IMG/VR virus record: IMGVR_UViG_3300044825_002268
Location: 1-55,765 of that record
Length of the DNA: 55,765 bases
Source: a virus
Strand: one strand, 5' to 3'
This document shows positions 2,612-13,365 of the stretch, piece after piece. Under the pieces are notes generated by a model. The model ran no database searches and was not told the origin of the DNA. It saw only the letters and a list, made by a program, of their open reading frames with translations. A program made the position numbers and the translations under genes. The stretch's first letter is position 1. Each line of letters opens with the position of its first letter.

Positions 2612-5600
2612 AGCGTTTTAGCTCCTGTTGGAGGGAAAAGTTAATTAAATTTCCCGCATCTGTTACGTCTGGAACGGTATTAAACGGGGCAATGATTGGG
2701 CCGCCGCGTTGCATCTTGACTGCGCCGCCCTTTTTGTAGGGCTGGCCTTTCAGCGCAGATTTCTTCAACTCCGGGGTAAATTCAATCATATAGACCGGCT
2801 CAGTCAGGTCTGCGTAACCGCCCTCCTCGGTCACACCTCTACCTACTTTGGTTTTGGTCTCATAAAACCGACCACCCATCTGCTTGGCATAGTCTTGTAA
2901 GGCTTTCTTCAGTTTATTGTCATAAAACGCCAGCATCCCTTCTTCCCGTGGGGCGCTGACGCCGGTATCAAACTTTTGCATCCGATCCCATGTCTTTTTC
3001 GTTATCCGATCAATTTGATTTTCGGACAGCCGGCGACCAATGGACTCGACTAACTCTCGTAATTCCGCTTGCGTCTTAATTGGGACGCTTTTGCGTTCTT
3101 TTAAAATTCCCCTAGCCCGAGCCTCGGCTTCTAGGTTCATACGGCCTGCAAGACCGCCTTTTTGTTCTGTGGCCGATACATTCCACCCGTCTTCGGTCTT
3201 TTCCCAAGCAATCTCTTGTGTTCCCCAGCGCTTAATCTGAGGGCTGGCGGCTGAAAATCCTACGCGGTCGTAACCGTTTCGGGCTGCGTAGTTGAGCGCT
3301 CGTTTTAGACCCAGTTTGTGCCATGTTTCTTTTAACGGCGCGTTTGGCAGAAGTTCATTTAATTTTTCGTATGGTTTTTTTGCTTCATCATATTCTTTGA
3401 GTGCTTGGTCAGCAATTTGTCGCAACTTTTGGAATTCTGGATCTTGTCCAATTTGTCCTACTATATCTCCACTTAAATATCTTTTTCCAAGTTTTTGTAA
3501 AAATTCAATTTCTTTTTGATTTTTATATTGATTTACGTTGCCCTGCGCTTCCCTTGCTAGACTTTGTTTTTCCAGATAATTTGATCTAATCTCATCAGCG
3601 TTGGCCATATTCTCTGGCGTCCGATAACCACGGTCTGCGCCCTGCTGATGCCAGTCGGACTGCAGCTCGTCCACATAAAGCATAGGCTTGCCATCGGTAG
3701 TGATTCGGTCTTGTAGTCGCAGGTGGGCTATAACATCCGGCTCCTCGATGTGCGGGTTGTCGTTATATTCATCCCGCTCGTTGGCCAACTTCGCCTTTGT
3801 CTTTAGACGATTAAAATTGACTGTGTCTTCAGGCGTCATGACCGGTCTATCTTTGTCAGGGCCAATAGATTTTCTGAACTTCTCATACAGCCCTTCGAGC
3901 TGCGCCTGCTCCCGCTTCGTAAGAGCCGGGTTTGGCTGCGGTTGATACTGAATCCAAATCTCTCGGTAGTTCTCGCCCAAAGGTAATTGATAGTCGTGAT
4001 ACAACGTCTGTCCTTCAGAGACTAGCCCCATGTCGATAGCGTGAGTGTTGGCTGCGCCTTCTGCCTCTTCCTGAGTTCGGAAGTAATCTCCGACCGGACG
4101 ACCTCTGGCATCACGAACCGTAAAACCAACATCATCGTTACCTAAAATTTCGTAACCAAGGTCGTTTTCATATCGATAGTAAGGACTTTCCCAATATTGA
4201 CTATAGGCAATGTCGTAGGCTTCTTGACGGATGTTGTCATCAATCTTCGAGTCTATGTCTGCCTTTATCGCAGGGTTAGCCAACTCTTCCGGGGTGTATT
4301 CATCATAAATACGTTGAGCTATTTCATCCCTACGACCGGGATTGTAGTTATCAAAATCATTAAAAATGTCATCAGCGTTGCTGCTTATGTAATCCGGATC
4401 ATCGATAGAATCACCCCGAAACTTCATTTCAGCCTGATCGCCTTTAGCGGCTTCGTACTGGATTTCTGAAAACTTGTATTTATTGGCCTCTGTGAACTCT
4501 TGGATATCTTCCTTAGTGACTTTCGCTTGACCCGACAGGAAGGACTGCAAGCCAGAAAACTCCAGCTCTTCGTTTGATACGCCGCCGCGTTTGAGGTCAT
4601 TCAAAAAGGCATCGCCCGTTCCCTGCTTGCGCTGAAGGTTCAATGCGGCCTTCTCTGCTTGCGAAAAAAGTCCCAGCTCGTTTGCCGGCGCCTTAATCTC
4701 TGCTGGCTTTCCGGTCTTGACTTCAGTCTTTAATACCTCAGTTATGGGCTTACCTACCGGCTCAATCGATAGGCCAACCGGTAGCGGCGGGACTTCAGAT
4801 ACCGCCTCTTTTACAGCCGTGCCTGCTTTGCCAGCTATCGATCTGAGCTGCGGTGCCATCCCGGTCAGCGAACCCGTCACCGGCCCAAACACCTCCGGCA
4901 TTAGCGGGGGCAGCTTGTACTTAGTCTCAAGCTCCTCCATGAACTTACCGAACTGTCCGACCTTCTCAGCCGCTGCGGGGGAAAGATCTCCGCTCGGAAG
5001 CATGAACTCTTCCATAGCCTTTTCCCCGGCCTTGATACCTTCTTGGGTTCCAAACTTCCCTGAGGTAATGGTTTTGTAAGCCCCGACAAACGGGGAGACC
5101 AAAGCCTTGGGGATTTGGGAGGCGATGAACTTCGTAGCCTCAAAGGTCGGGCTGCCAGAAGACTCTTGGTTCGGATCTAAGGCGGGCAACATTCCGCTGA
5201 TCTCATCCGTAATCGGTGTGCCGCCGGCCTGCATATGGACAGGTCCACCAGCCTTGTAAGCCCTAAATTGCTCTTCAAAGTTTACTGGGCCACCAGACTT
5301 TTTCTTGTATTTATTTATGCCGCCAAAAAGATCGGCCAGCCGGTTAAATTCATCTTTTGATATGACCGGCTCTCCGTTGAACTCAGCAATAATATTGACA
5401 TCAATGCCACGATCTTGGGCATTTTTAAGAATATTTGGTCTAAGCCACACCAAGTCTGCATTAGAAAGATCGCCAATGTGCGACCATTGTTGAGACTTGA
5501 TAAAGTCTTGCACGAAAGGAATGAATTCATCGTCCGGGCGCTGATTTTTCGGACCTTTAATCTGGCTAATCAACGGTGGGCGGGGCGGAACCCCAGCTTC

Positions 5601-8645: not shown

Positions 8646-8833
8646 CAGGGCTCCCCGATCACATACTTAGACTTATTGCCGTTGCGGATTGCCAAGATGG
8701 TGTAGCCCTTTGCCCTAAGTCTATGGATTTGCGCCGGCAGACGACCGATCCCCTTCTTCTTTGCGTAGGCTTCATCGATCCAGCCGTTTGAGAGAAGTCG
8801 GTCAAGGGTTAGCATCAGTTGGCTACGCTGCAT
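8645..8833 (-). CDS. Small winged-helix/HTH-like protein
   Basis: 62 residues, mostly helical at the N terminus (LMLTLDRLLSNGWIDEAYA), then a basic GIGRLPAQIHRLRAKGYTI segment and a short beta-hairpin-like end (KSKYVIGEP). This pattern suits a winged-helix DNA-binding fold. The ATG overlaps the TerL stop by 11 bases and its stop overlaps the start of the giant gene, so it is translationally linked to packaging genes. It could modulate packaging or late expression. No specific role can be read from the sequence. Confidence 0.65.
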   Translation of the reverse strand: MQRSQLMLTLDRLLSNGWIDEAYAKKKGIGRLPAQIHRLRAKGYTILAIRNGNKSKYVIGEP

Positions 8834-10229
8834 AAGGGTTCACGCGCTTAGGTCTGAATTCGGCGTAATCATCATCGTCCCTTGCCGGTGGGTCTATGTC
8901 AAGGAACCCCGCATCTCTGAGGTATCTGAGCGCCTGAGTACAGGTATCGACAAAGTCGTCATGGGTGGATTCTGGGAATGAGCAAATCTGACTGACGAAC
9001 CCCTCAGCCCAGTCTCGGACGTATCCCTTCTTGACCATTGACTCGGGGATGTAGACCCGCTTATGGGCGATGATGTTGGCCACAATCGATAGCCTCTGGA
9101 TCTTATCCGCCCGGCCGGGGTTGTACGCCCTCACCGGCAGACGCGCCCGCTGCAGGTCTTGGATGAGACTTATGCCCGAGGCTTTGTCTTCAATGAGGAT
9201 TAGGTCAACCTTCTTGCCGTCTTTGCCCTCCCCGTAGGTCACCTTGTATTCCTCGATGACCTTCGGCCGCAGGTCGGGGTACTGGAGCCTATCCTGCCAT
9301 GCGTCTATCAGCATGACCGCGGTTGGGCCGTCCATGGGCTGGAAGATCCCCCAAGTCGTGCAGGCGGTGGGATCGTTGACGGTCTTCTCGGTATAGGCGC
9401 AGTCGTAGGACTGCAGGATGAAGTCGAACTTCGGAAACGGCTTCTCAGCCGGCCAGAGCTTGAACATTTCCCGCTTGACGATCCCCGACTCCTCGGGATC
9501 GATGATCTCAGCGTAGATCTCCTGCCGCCCCAGCTTGGTTCCCTCGTACTGAAGGATCTGCTTTTGGAAATTAGGGGACAGGTTGGCTAGGTTGTCATAG
9601 GTGGACGCAGTAGTAAGCGTTACATCGTCCCCATCCCGGCCGACCAGATCGATGATCAAGTCTTTAGGCCGCGGGGTAGTGGTGGCGATAATCCGGGTTC
9701 TGGAGCCAAGCCGGACCGAGAACATGATCTGATCCCACGCCTCATCGAGGTAGTCCCAAGCGGCCAGCTCGTCTAGCCATGCCCCGTGGAACTGCGGCCC
9801 CCGGAAGCGCTCTGGCTCCGAGGCTGGGATGCCTTTGATCAGGCTGCCATTAGTCAATTTAATCTCGTGGAAGGCGCGGTTGTAATCTGCCACAAGTGAA
9901 TCGGGTATAACTGATAGGAGCCCTGAATCTCCTTCAAAACAGGTCGCCCGAACATCGGAGCTGGTGGGCGCTCCAACCAGCCAGCGAGTGCCTGCTTCCT
10001 GCCATGCCCACCACCCCACTTGCTCCGCAGCCGTCCGGGTTTTGCCGGCACCGCGGCCGGCGAGCATAAGCCATATCGTCCACCAATCCCCAGCCGGCAC
10101 AATCTGGTGCTTATGGGCCTTAGTGAGCCAGTTAGCCCGCCAAGCCCATGCGGCCTGATCCTCGGCTGGCAAAATGGAGAACTTGGCCTGAATCTCTGGG
10201 TCGGCCAGCAACTCAGCAAGATCAGTCAT
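8823..10229 (-). CDS. terL: Terminase large subunit (ATPase and nuclease)
   Basis: 468 residues. The ATPase Walker A is G58-R-G-A-G-K-T64 and Walker B with catalytic acid is WLDE (D153, E154), followed by the coupling motif region IIATTTPRP (~180-188). The RNase H-like nuclease domain shows D276 (QSYDCAY), E347/D348 (LIEDKASG) and D424/D425/D428 (HDDFVDT). It cuts the concatemer and pumps DNA through the portal. It starts three bases after the TerS stop and overlaps the small HTH gene. All catalytic motifs are intact and the length is normal for the family. Confidence 0.96.
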   Translation of the reverse strand: MTDLAELLADPEIQAKFSILPAEDQAAWAWRANWLTKAHKHQIVPAGDWWTIWLMLAGRGAGKTRTAAEQVGWWAWQEAGTRWLVGAPTSSDVRATCFEGDSGLLSVIPDSLVADYNRAFHEIKLTNGSLIKGIPASEPERFRGPQFHGAWLDELAAWDYLDEAWDQIMFSVRLGSRTRIIATTTPRPKDLIIDLVGRDGDDVTLTTASTYDNLANLSPNFQKQILQYEGTKLGRQEIYAEIIDPEESGIVKREMFKLWPAEKPFPKFDFILQSYDCAYTEKTVNDPTACTTWGIFQPMDGPTAVMLIDAWQDRLQYPDLRPKVIEEYKVTYGEGKDGKKVDLILIEDKASGISLIQDLQRARLPVRAYNPGRADKIQRLSIVANIIAHKRVYIPESMVKKGYVRDWAEGFVSQICSFPESTHDDFVDTCTQALRYLRDAGFLDIDPPARDDDDYAEFRPKRVNPYAA

Positions 10230-10232
10230 CCC

Positions 10233-10841
10233 TCATTCCTGAGCCTGCTTCTTTAGCTCTAGGTTCTGCAGGATGGTCGAAAAGAGGGTCTTGGTCTCCA
10301 CCTGAGCGTTGATGTGCAGGGGGTTATCTTTATCCCCAGTCAGCTCCACCCGGTCCCCGTACTTCCGGGGCTTCAGTTTGGCGGCCACCCATTTGCGGGC
10401 ATCGATCCGGTTCTTCTGCCACTGGATATAGGCGCTGTGCATCTCAATTTTGATCAGCTCCCCGGTCTTACTGTAGATCGGATTCGTCTCAGGAGTTTCG
10501 TCAGCAATGGCTTGGATTTCGTCAGCCAGCGTATCGGCCTGCTCTTCCCGTGCTCGCGTGTACATCTCGGAAAACTCAGGGTGACGCGCCAACCACAAAT
10601 ACACCGACGACTGGTTTGGCATATCCTCTCTCATACAGATCTGTCTTAATGCTTCTCCGTTAGATATGCGAGTACAGATCTCTGAAGCGAGTTTTAGGTT
10701 GTAGTCTGTTGGGCGACCGGTCTTTTGTTTTGGCGGGTCTTGAACCGGCGGTTGGCCGATGGTTGAACCGTCCGTTGACGGGCCGTTTACCGGATCGTTA
10801 GCCTTCGGTTTACCCTTCGGCTGCTTAGTTGTTTCAGGCAT
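10233..10841 (-). CDS. terS: Terminase small subunit
   Basis: 202 residues from the ATG at 10841 (an upstream in-frame TTG at 10874 would add 11 residues). After a Pro/Gly/Ser-rich disordered N terminus comes a helix-turn-helix region (KTGRPTDYNLKLASEICTRI, then QSSVYLWLARHPEF) and a long helical part (EEQADTLADEIQAIADETPE), the pattern of Bcep22/Sf6-type small terminases that recognise the packaging site. The C-terminal RKYGDRVELTGD segment is also common in this group. It is the first protein gene after the structured non-coding region, which may hold the promoter or packaging signal. The N-terminal linker is encoded by a GGTT/AACC-rich repeat. Confidence 0.88.
   Translation of the reverse strand: MPETTKQPKGKPKANDPVNGPSTDGSTIGQPPVQDPPKQKTGRPTDYNLKLASEICTRISNGEALRQICMREDMPNQSSVYLWLARHPEFSEMYTRAREEQADTLADEIQAIADETPETNPIYSKTGELIKIEMHSAYIQWQKNRIDARKWVAAKLKPRKYGDRVELTGDKDNPLHINAQVETKTLFSTILQNLELKKQAQE
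10738..10806. repeat. GGTT/AACC-rich repeat, copy inside terS
   Basis: This segment contains GGTTGAACCGTCCGTTGACGG and related half-sites. It resembles the segments at 11736-11786, 18368-18406 and 18531-18560. In the minus-strand frame it encodes the low-complexity VNGPSTDGSTIGQ linker of TerS. Similarity is by eye and the boundaries are approximate. Confidence 0.5.
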
Positions 10842-10954
10842 CACCCTTAATCCAATCGAATTGATATCGGGCAATGATACGGCCTCGCTCTCTTTCCCGC
10901 TACTGTTTCATCACCCAGACTGCCCCCTACCCCAAAAGGCATGAGACAGGCTAG

Positions 10955-11537
10955 GCATCACCCCCAGTCAGAGCTGGACCCCCATGCTACGGATTGGATA
11001 CCGTACACCCTCGACTTAGGGGCACTGCCAGTCGGCGGATTCTTACGGATTTGCACCGGGTCGCCTAAGCGCCTTACCGCTACCCTTTCCTTCCGAGCGC
11101 CGAGGTTACGGCCCTACTGTCGTGCGGAGTACGGCCCAAGAAAAGAAAAAGCCCCATTACGGCTGGGTTCCAAGCTCCGACGGAAGTGAGCGGCAGAAGA
11201 TCGCTCTCGACAACCGAAACCCATGCGTAATAGGGCTAGGTCTTCTGCTAGTTCACCCTTCCGAGGTGGCCTGATCTTTTTCTCAGACGAGCCAATTATG
11301 AGATCTCCTGATCAGTCTTGCAAGTAGGAAGGGAGAGAGATGGAGTATTAGTTTCTCAATTTTCCTCCAAACCCGCACCAGTGCTCGATCTTAGGGCTTC
11401 GGCAGTGGATTTGGGGCGGGAGCCAGTTGTGTACAACAACCGAACCCACGTTGCCGGAAATTCGTTTGTTCTGGCTCCCAAGACGGCTGGGTGCTACCCG
11501 GACCGGACGACTGTTGGCAGCACCCATGCGTCTTAGG
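10955..11537 (-). ncRNA. Candidate large structured RNA between the early operon and terS
   Basis: No convincing protein gene lies between the stop at 11533 and terS. Read on the minus strand the stretch folds repeatedly: 11529-11537 with 11477-11485 plus an inner 8-bp stem; 11471-11479 with 11418-11426 (GGGAGCCAG/CTGGCTCCC); 11407-11414 with 11367-11374; 11327-11333 with 11256-11262; 11226-11236 with 11151-11161 plus an inner 8-bp stem; 11064-11069 with 11015-11020; 11001-11005 with 10988-10992; and 10984-10987 with 10955-10958. Two stems close only with G-U pairs on the minus strand, which favours minus-strand RNA. An 8-bp pairing of 11241-11248 with the loop at 11193-11200 gives a pseudoknot. 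Size and context resemble phage ornate RNAs such as GOLLD or ROOL, but I cannot match a family consensus. Confidence 0.6.
11138..11236 (-). terminator. Stem with U-run inside the structured RNA, terminator-like
   Basis: On the minus strand an 11-bp stem (GCCCUAUUACG with CGUAAUGGGGC, one G-U pair) is followed at once by TTTTTCTTTTCTT (11138-11150). The loop is large and itself structured (UGGGUUUC/GGAACCCA, then GAGCG/CGCUC). It could end or attenuate early transcription before terS, or be a processing point within a longer RNA. Confidence 0.5.
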
Positions 11538-11727
11538 CCATTGCTTCCTTAGTCTCTTGCCGCAGCACCCACGCCCGAACCTGATCGAGCTCGGCCTGCA
11601 TCTGAACCGTAGCGCGGTGGATACCGGTCGTATCAACACCATTGGCGGCCATCTTCTGGAGCTGGGTCGCTAGGATCGTCAGGCGGGCCACATTAAACCC
11701 TAAGTTATTACCGTCATCTATCTTCAA
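11533..11727 (-). CDS. Small helical protein, unknown
   Basis: 64 residues, predicted helical (ARLTILATQLQKMAANGVD, then VQMQAELDQVRAWVLRQETK). It begins with TTG at 11727, supported by AGAGG five bases upstream; no better ATG is in frame. Its stop lies in the first stem of the structured RNA region, so it is the last protein gene of the early minus operon. I do not recognise a family. Confidence 0.6.
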   Translation of the reverse strand: MKIDDGNNLGFNVARLTILATQLQKMAANGVDTTGIHRATVQMQAELDQVRAWVLRQETKEAMA

Positions 11728-13065: not shown

Positions 13066-13365
13066 TTAGTCGGGTATTACCTTGAGGTGTCCCTGCTCGA
13101 ACAGCCATCCGATGGTCTTGCGGTGGGCTTCCTCCCACAGCTCATGACGCTCCTCCCTGTTTAGGGAAGCTCCCTGATCAAGCTCCATGTGGCAGCGGTG
13201 GCAGAGGGCGGCTATCCGGTAATCGTGGGCCTTGATTGAGCGCCCTTTTCCGTCCCGTAGCTGGTTTGAATGGGCCGCCACCACCGTTCCATCCTCCCGG
13301 CCGCAGGATTGGCAGGGAGAGGCTCTGACGACCTCCAGAAGGGTTTTATTCCGGTAATGGGTCAC
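13066..13365 (-). CDS. HNH-type nuclease, YbcO/DUF1364-like
   Basis: 99 residues. Cysteines C18 and C21 (CQSC), H32 (AAHSN), then C55/C58 (CHRCH) with H59 and D63 form a zinc-bound His-Me finger pattern like YbcO (DUF1364) and related phage recombination nucleases. The RSIKAHDYRIAALCHRCH segment is the most diagnostic. It likely nicks or resolves DNA during phage recombination, along with RusA encoded upstream. Its start overlaps the stop of the preceding membrane protein gene. Confidence 0.75.
   Translation of the reverse strand: MTHYRNKTLLEVVRASPCQSCGREDGTVVAAHSNQLRDGKGRSIKAHDYRIAALCHRCHMELDQGASLNREERHELWEEAHRKTIGWLFEQGHLKVIPD

Follow-up and report, generated by a model that had tools for sequence, protein, structure and literature searches.

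Analysis of the virus record IMGVR_UViG_3300044825_002268 (positions 1 to 55,765, referred to here as the window, that is the whole 55,765-nucleotide stretch of DNA analysed) points to a structured RNA gene of approximately 380 nt on the minus strand, which is probably free-standing, transcribed from its own promoter and acting in trans, and which would represent a new non-coding RNA family of aquatic tailed phages. Comparison of the copies found in other phages shows a conserved structure with two covarying pseudoknots and a sharp 3′ boundary for the predicted RNA, and a gene that behaves in these genomes as a separable entity, being present or absent as a unit and occupying several genomic positions in both orientations.

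The locus and boundaries of the predicted RNA

The region between terS and the small CDS upstream of it (Table 1; RNA coordinates refer to the minus strand) comprises 658 bases without a supported gene, in keeping with the gene-free stretch described in an earlier note made from the sequence of the window. Folding of the whole 658-base region in comparison with dinucleotide shuffles gave z values of -3.5 for the minus strand and -1.4 for the plus strand, and the complementary minus-strand segments that the note had described are present. The note had further taken 10955-11537 as a single RNA of about 580 bases. An RNA is indeed predicted there, but its length is 0.37-0.38 kb and the span covers two elements. 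A DNA search of relatives, fetched with TerL and TerS, split the region into the predicted RNA gene and a separate putative hairpin pair, and the RNA 3′ end (10907-10954) lies outside the earlier span. The predicted RNA is approximately 371-382 nt in length, and inclusion of the promoter extends the gene to 11323. In pairwise comparisons of copies from different contexts the 3′ limit of homology is sharp, falling at about +124 to +129 (~126 bases) from the start of AAGAATCC.

Many relatives, whether or not they have the RNA, carry the second element immediately before terS, with GTGGGGTTCGGTTGTTGTACACA as a common stretch; it may be a site for packaging or another RNA element. The motif ACGCAUGGGU...ACCCAGCCGU of this element occurs again in the P2 hairpin of the window. 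Upstream of the terminase region the window also carries a small HNH endonuclease gene (phrog_131, 13066-13365, minus strand).

Table 1 Features of the predicted RNA gene and its surroundings in the window
Feature	Position	Strand	Details
Small CDS	11533-11727	minus	flank upstream of the RNA region
Two-hairpin element, separate from the RNA	11415..11534	minus	conserved before terS
-35 element TTGCAA	11318..11323	minus	sigma70-like site search
-10 element CATAAT	11295..11300	minus	17-base spacer after -35
Predicted ncRNA	10907..11288	minus	start placed from the promoter; 3′ end is the homology boundary
5′ hairpin P1	11254..11268	minus	loop CGGAAG (11258-11263), complementary to 11181-11186
Long hairpin P2	11151..11239	minus	strands 11239-11226 and 11161-11151
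Putative kissing partner CUUCCG in hairpin P2	11181..11186	minus	6-bp complementarity; by analogy with other copies
U-run 3′ of P2, terminator-like	11140..11150	minus	in nearly all copies; short in L179 and L212
Conserved core, match of covariance model R1	10978..11134	minus	152.7 bits, E 8e-40; window itself in the model
Pseudoknot Hd	11082..11106	minus	11106-11103 with 11085-11082; helix 5
T-loop-like hairpin CCGGUGCAAAUCCG	11046..11059	minus	helix 9; conserved columns
Helix Hh	11012..11034	minus	11034-11030 with 11016-11012; helix 10, 99.5% paired; crosses Hi
Pseudoknot Hi	10978..11023	minus	11023-11018 with 10983-10978; helix 11
3′ G-rich hairpin GGGGUAGGGGG	10920..10949	minus	helix 14
terS (phrog_1482)	10233..10874	minus	
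terL	8823..10229	minus	

Covariation and the core fold

We aligned 39 copies with plain MAFFT and named 58 pairs, two pseudoknots included; 84.2% of the resulting cells pair. Cells in which both sides had changed numbered 379, in comparison with 127 ± 10.5 in shuffles, none of 500 of which reached the observed value, and with 48-94 in controls in which the partner strand had been slid. The first helix displays GC, CG, UA and AU pairs among the copies. The covariation that the earlier note had suggested looking for in relatives was thereby found, as expected of the structured non-coding minus-strand RNA of aquatic phages that it had proposed, and the conserved protein gene that would have spoken against this proposal was sought without success: open reading frames extend over the core in at most 14 of the 39 copies in any frame and none is conserved, making it unlikely that the region is coding. 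Folded as a single sequence the RNA gene alone gave no significant result (sense z -1.35, antisense -2.1); this fold was therefore left out as evidence, the proof being the comparison of copies.

R1, a 154-position covariance model of the core, has one match in the window's own genome and detected further diverged copies elsewhere; a match before terS in L017 scored 42.6 bits. The window shares with the R1 family the predicted helices Ha, Hd and He, the T-loop-like hairpin, AAGAAUCC, the Hh/Hi pseudoknot and the compensatory changes. Hd pairs in 94.9% of cells with both-side changes in all three of its pairs, its fourth pair (helix 4) being weak at 29%, and Hi pairs in 94% with both-side changes in five of six pairs. 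The claimed structure leaves out helices 4 and 13, both of them weak. Towards the 3′ end, many of the pairs between GGGGUAGGGGG and its pyrimidine partner strand are G-U pairs, possible on the minus-strand RNA only, so that helix 14 depends on the kind of strand-specific pairing already remarked upon in the earlier note. The 3′ halves of the copies contain a short motif twice per RNA (CGAGGAA...CGAGGAA or GGGUGAA...GGGUGAA), the two occurrences of which change in step, as though the two repeats could meet one partner.

A putative promoter and kissing-hairpin domain at the 5′ end

A sigma70-like promoter was identified upstream of most copies (for example TTGCAA-17-TATCAT), the best site lying in a consistent place, mostly -230 to -310 from AAGAATCC. 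Promoter scores of at least 11 were obtained for 48% of 44 copies and for 12.5% of mononucleotide shuffles, a modest statistic; these sites support, and lead us to infer, a sigma70-type promoter of its own driving the RNA gene. Every copy inspected contains a short hairpin followed by a long hairpin and usually by a U-run. In each of the 20 copies whose 5′ domain aligns best, the loop of the 5′ hairpin and a strand within the long hairpin are perfectly complementary over 7 bp, and seven sequence versions of this match occur. Such pairing of the P1 loop with P2 may take place inside one molecule or equally between molecules.

The 5′ loop pairing would be made between molecules if the RNA formed RNA-only multimers as for GOLLD or ROOL, a reading in keeping with the dense structure, the pseudoknots, the exact 7-bp loop pairing and the phage location, and with the cages and intermolecular kissing loops reported for both of these families (PMC12286853). 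We consider it quite improbable, however, as the loop pairing is equally possible within a single molecule and the RNA has no sequence match to GOLLD or ROOL and at most half the size of GOLLD.

P2 and the U-run together resemble an intrinsic terminator in most copies, L179 and L212 being less clear cases. If the RNA is a free-standing gene, pairing of the 5′ loop, together with the U-run hairpin, would serve to fix its fold, or would set the ratio of short to long transcripts. As a counterpoint, a terminator-like hairpin in the middle of the RNA could indicate that the core is perhaps made only under control.

Distribution and genomic contexts

We searched IMG/VR viral contigs with two sequence patterns, each based mostly on a different half of the core. 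These matched 51 and 68 viral contigs respectively, together approximately 85 loci and 49 distinct copies, indicating that the predicted fold is found again, at varying positions, in dozens of further aquatic phages. The right-half pattern had no match in 84,980 bacterial and archaeal genomes (GTDB), an exact pattern being liable to miss diverged copies, and the 5′-domain pattern gave four chance-like matches in GTDB genomes, which fall in coding DNA. No match to the window RNA was obtained among INPHARED phages, where other family members matched only MW202545 and, over a short stretch of the insert module, Pseudomonas phage ZC03. A literature search returned no description of the RNA.

The closest relative, whose TerL is 99% identical, has 33 bases between the same flanks that enclose 541 in the window, and an R1 search of its whole 54-kb record (G001) identified no copy; the empty site, combined with the lack of a copy elsewhere in this relative, indicates that the RNA gene is present or absent as a unit. 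Unit presence or absence would also be expected of a ribozyme or a self-excising mobile RNA element inserted beside genes, for which the conserved unpaired bases and pseudoknots could likewise be cited. Such an element appears very improbable, given that no Rfam intron or ribozyme family matches, that no endonuclease or transposase is encoded inside and that the RNA lies between genes rather than within them and has a putative promoter of its own.

Some copies precede terS or separate it from terL, and some lie in antisense orientation between terL and the structural gene that follows; others precede primase/helicase, PAPS reductase or replication genes. The core itself recurs before terS in L125/L126 and also antisense beside terL in other phages. 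The location before terS emphasised in the earlier note accordingly applies to the window, while elsewhere the RNA takes other positions on either strand. These positions, combined with the absence from the closest relative, argue for a separable gene and against a leader of terS.

The principal alternative to a free-standing gene is a cis-acting leader, consisting of the promoter, an attenuator-like U-run hairpin and a structure controlling read-through by processive antitermination or attenuation. The U-run hairpin inside the transcript fits such a leader, as does the co-orientation of the nearest long ORF downstream in 31 of 45 copies, which frequently stand at the head of a replication or packaging operon. 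A leader should always lie upstream of, and co-oriented with, the gene that it controls, however, whereas in the remaining 14 of 45 copies the ORF is opposed (10 of these 14 belong to one lineage, and genes were called by a crude ORF picker). The copies in antisense orientation between terL and the structural gene next to it, like the other opposite-strand contexts, speak for a free-standing RNA rather than an obligatory leader; in addition the closest relative has none before terS despite having the same terminase, and one copy (L260) is followed by a clear terminator of its own. We therefore regard the leader as unlikely. As a free-standing gene, the RNA would be folded and act in trans, holding or sequestering a partner from the host or the phage, for which a protein, a part of the ribosome or another RNA are candidates, and would not control the adjacent gene.

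Different 3′ domains joined to a related 5′ domain

Searching with the 5′-domain pattern also identified copies joined to other 3′ domains, the types of which were sorted by eye rather than by models. These show that a related 5′ domain is joined to different 3′ domains. In L228 (MW202545), L231 and L233 the 3′ domain is the Betaproteobacteria-1 RNA (RF02932; 90.6-100.1 bits, cut-off 49.4), preceded by a 5′ domain made up of promoter, P1, long hairpin and U-run, and the window's type of core lies behind the same kind of 5′ domain in L226, L230 and L234. In MW202545.1 the Betaproteobacteria-1 RNA with its 5′ domain occupies 3330-3620 on the minus strand, directly downstream of a six-tRNA array, and two annotated hypothetical proteins overlapping it are probably not genes. 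Betaproteobacteria as the host would be a guess from the name of RF02932. A search of plasmids for bacterial RF02932 copies carrying the 5′ domain gave no match.

Other kinds of 3′ domain are found in L229/L240/L270, in L239/L243 with L242 and L247, in L238/L244, and in L259, L261 and L262. An Rfam scan of these domains from L229, L238, L239, L240, L243, L244, L259 and L270 returned no match, and they are likely to be further undescribed kinds of RNA. An extra domain is inserted in the core of L205, L245, L260 and L263. An unannotated segment of Pseudomonas phage ZC03 (L271, 1585-1720), situated between tRNA-Arg and tRNA-Leu, resembles part of the inserted domain, as seen in L205/L260.

Tentatively, and with considerable doubt, these arrangements may be read as a modular phage RNA platform, in which a common 5′ promoter and kissing-hairpin domain would be combined with unrelated 3′ domains of no fewer than four or five kinds, Betaproteobacteria-1 included, and with inserted subdomains; these would be swapped, each 3′ domain serving for a different host target or defence, in the way that tail-fibre or anti-defence protein modules are exchanged among phages. 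If true, the swapping of 3′ domains downstream of a shared 5′ domain would constitute a new pattern for phage non-coding RNAs.

Comparison with known RNA families

To our knowledge only a small number of large structured RNAs, GOLLD and ROOL among them, are known from phages, and these have not been explained. The RNA described here would add a family whose members are numerous and diverse, with clear boundaries and a likely promoter, and the natural pair of genomes with and without it renders its function directly testable. Covariance-model searches of Rfam, which the earlier note had proposed, gave nothing on the RNA at the gathering threshold or at E up to 10, GOLLD and ROOL included, consistent with its suggestion of a possible new class outside the known families. 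A short resemblance to the cobalamin riboswitch (GGUGCAAAUCC) had no match up to E 10 and was read as a general T-loop-like hairpin, and group I introns, RNase P and tmRNA, which the RNA resembles by eye, likewise had no model match.

The likeness to GOLLD or ROOL put forward in the earlier note was not upheld on the features tested. With GOLLD (RF02032) the RNA shares its structured, phage-borne nature and its origin in lake and other aquatic samples, but there is no covariance-model match and its ~380 nt contrast with the more than 800 nt of many GOLLD members (PMC12286853). GOLLD is, moreover, often near tRNA genes, whereas the window contains no tRNA gene and only 3 of 60 related loci do. 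ROOL (RF03087) is similarly a phage-borne structured RNA with pseudoknots, from which the RNA differs in the lack of a model match and in the rarity of a tRNA neighbourhood (the same 3 of 60 loci). By the features tested the predicted RNA is thus placed outside both families. The core of the window also differs from Betaproteobacteria-1 (RF02932), having no match to its model and no common motifs by eye, and the 5′ domain falls outside the 120 positions of that Rfam model. Nevertheless the same kind of 5′ domain precedes both RNAs (MW202545, L231, L233), by which Betaproteobacteria-1 gains a phage context and possibly its missing 5′ part.
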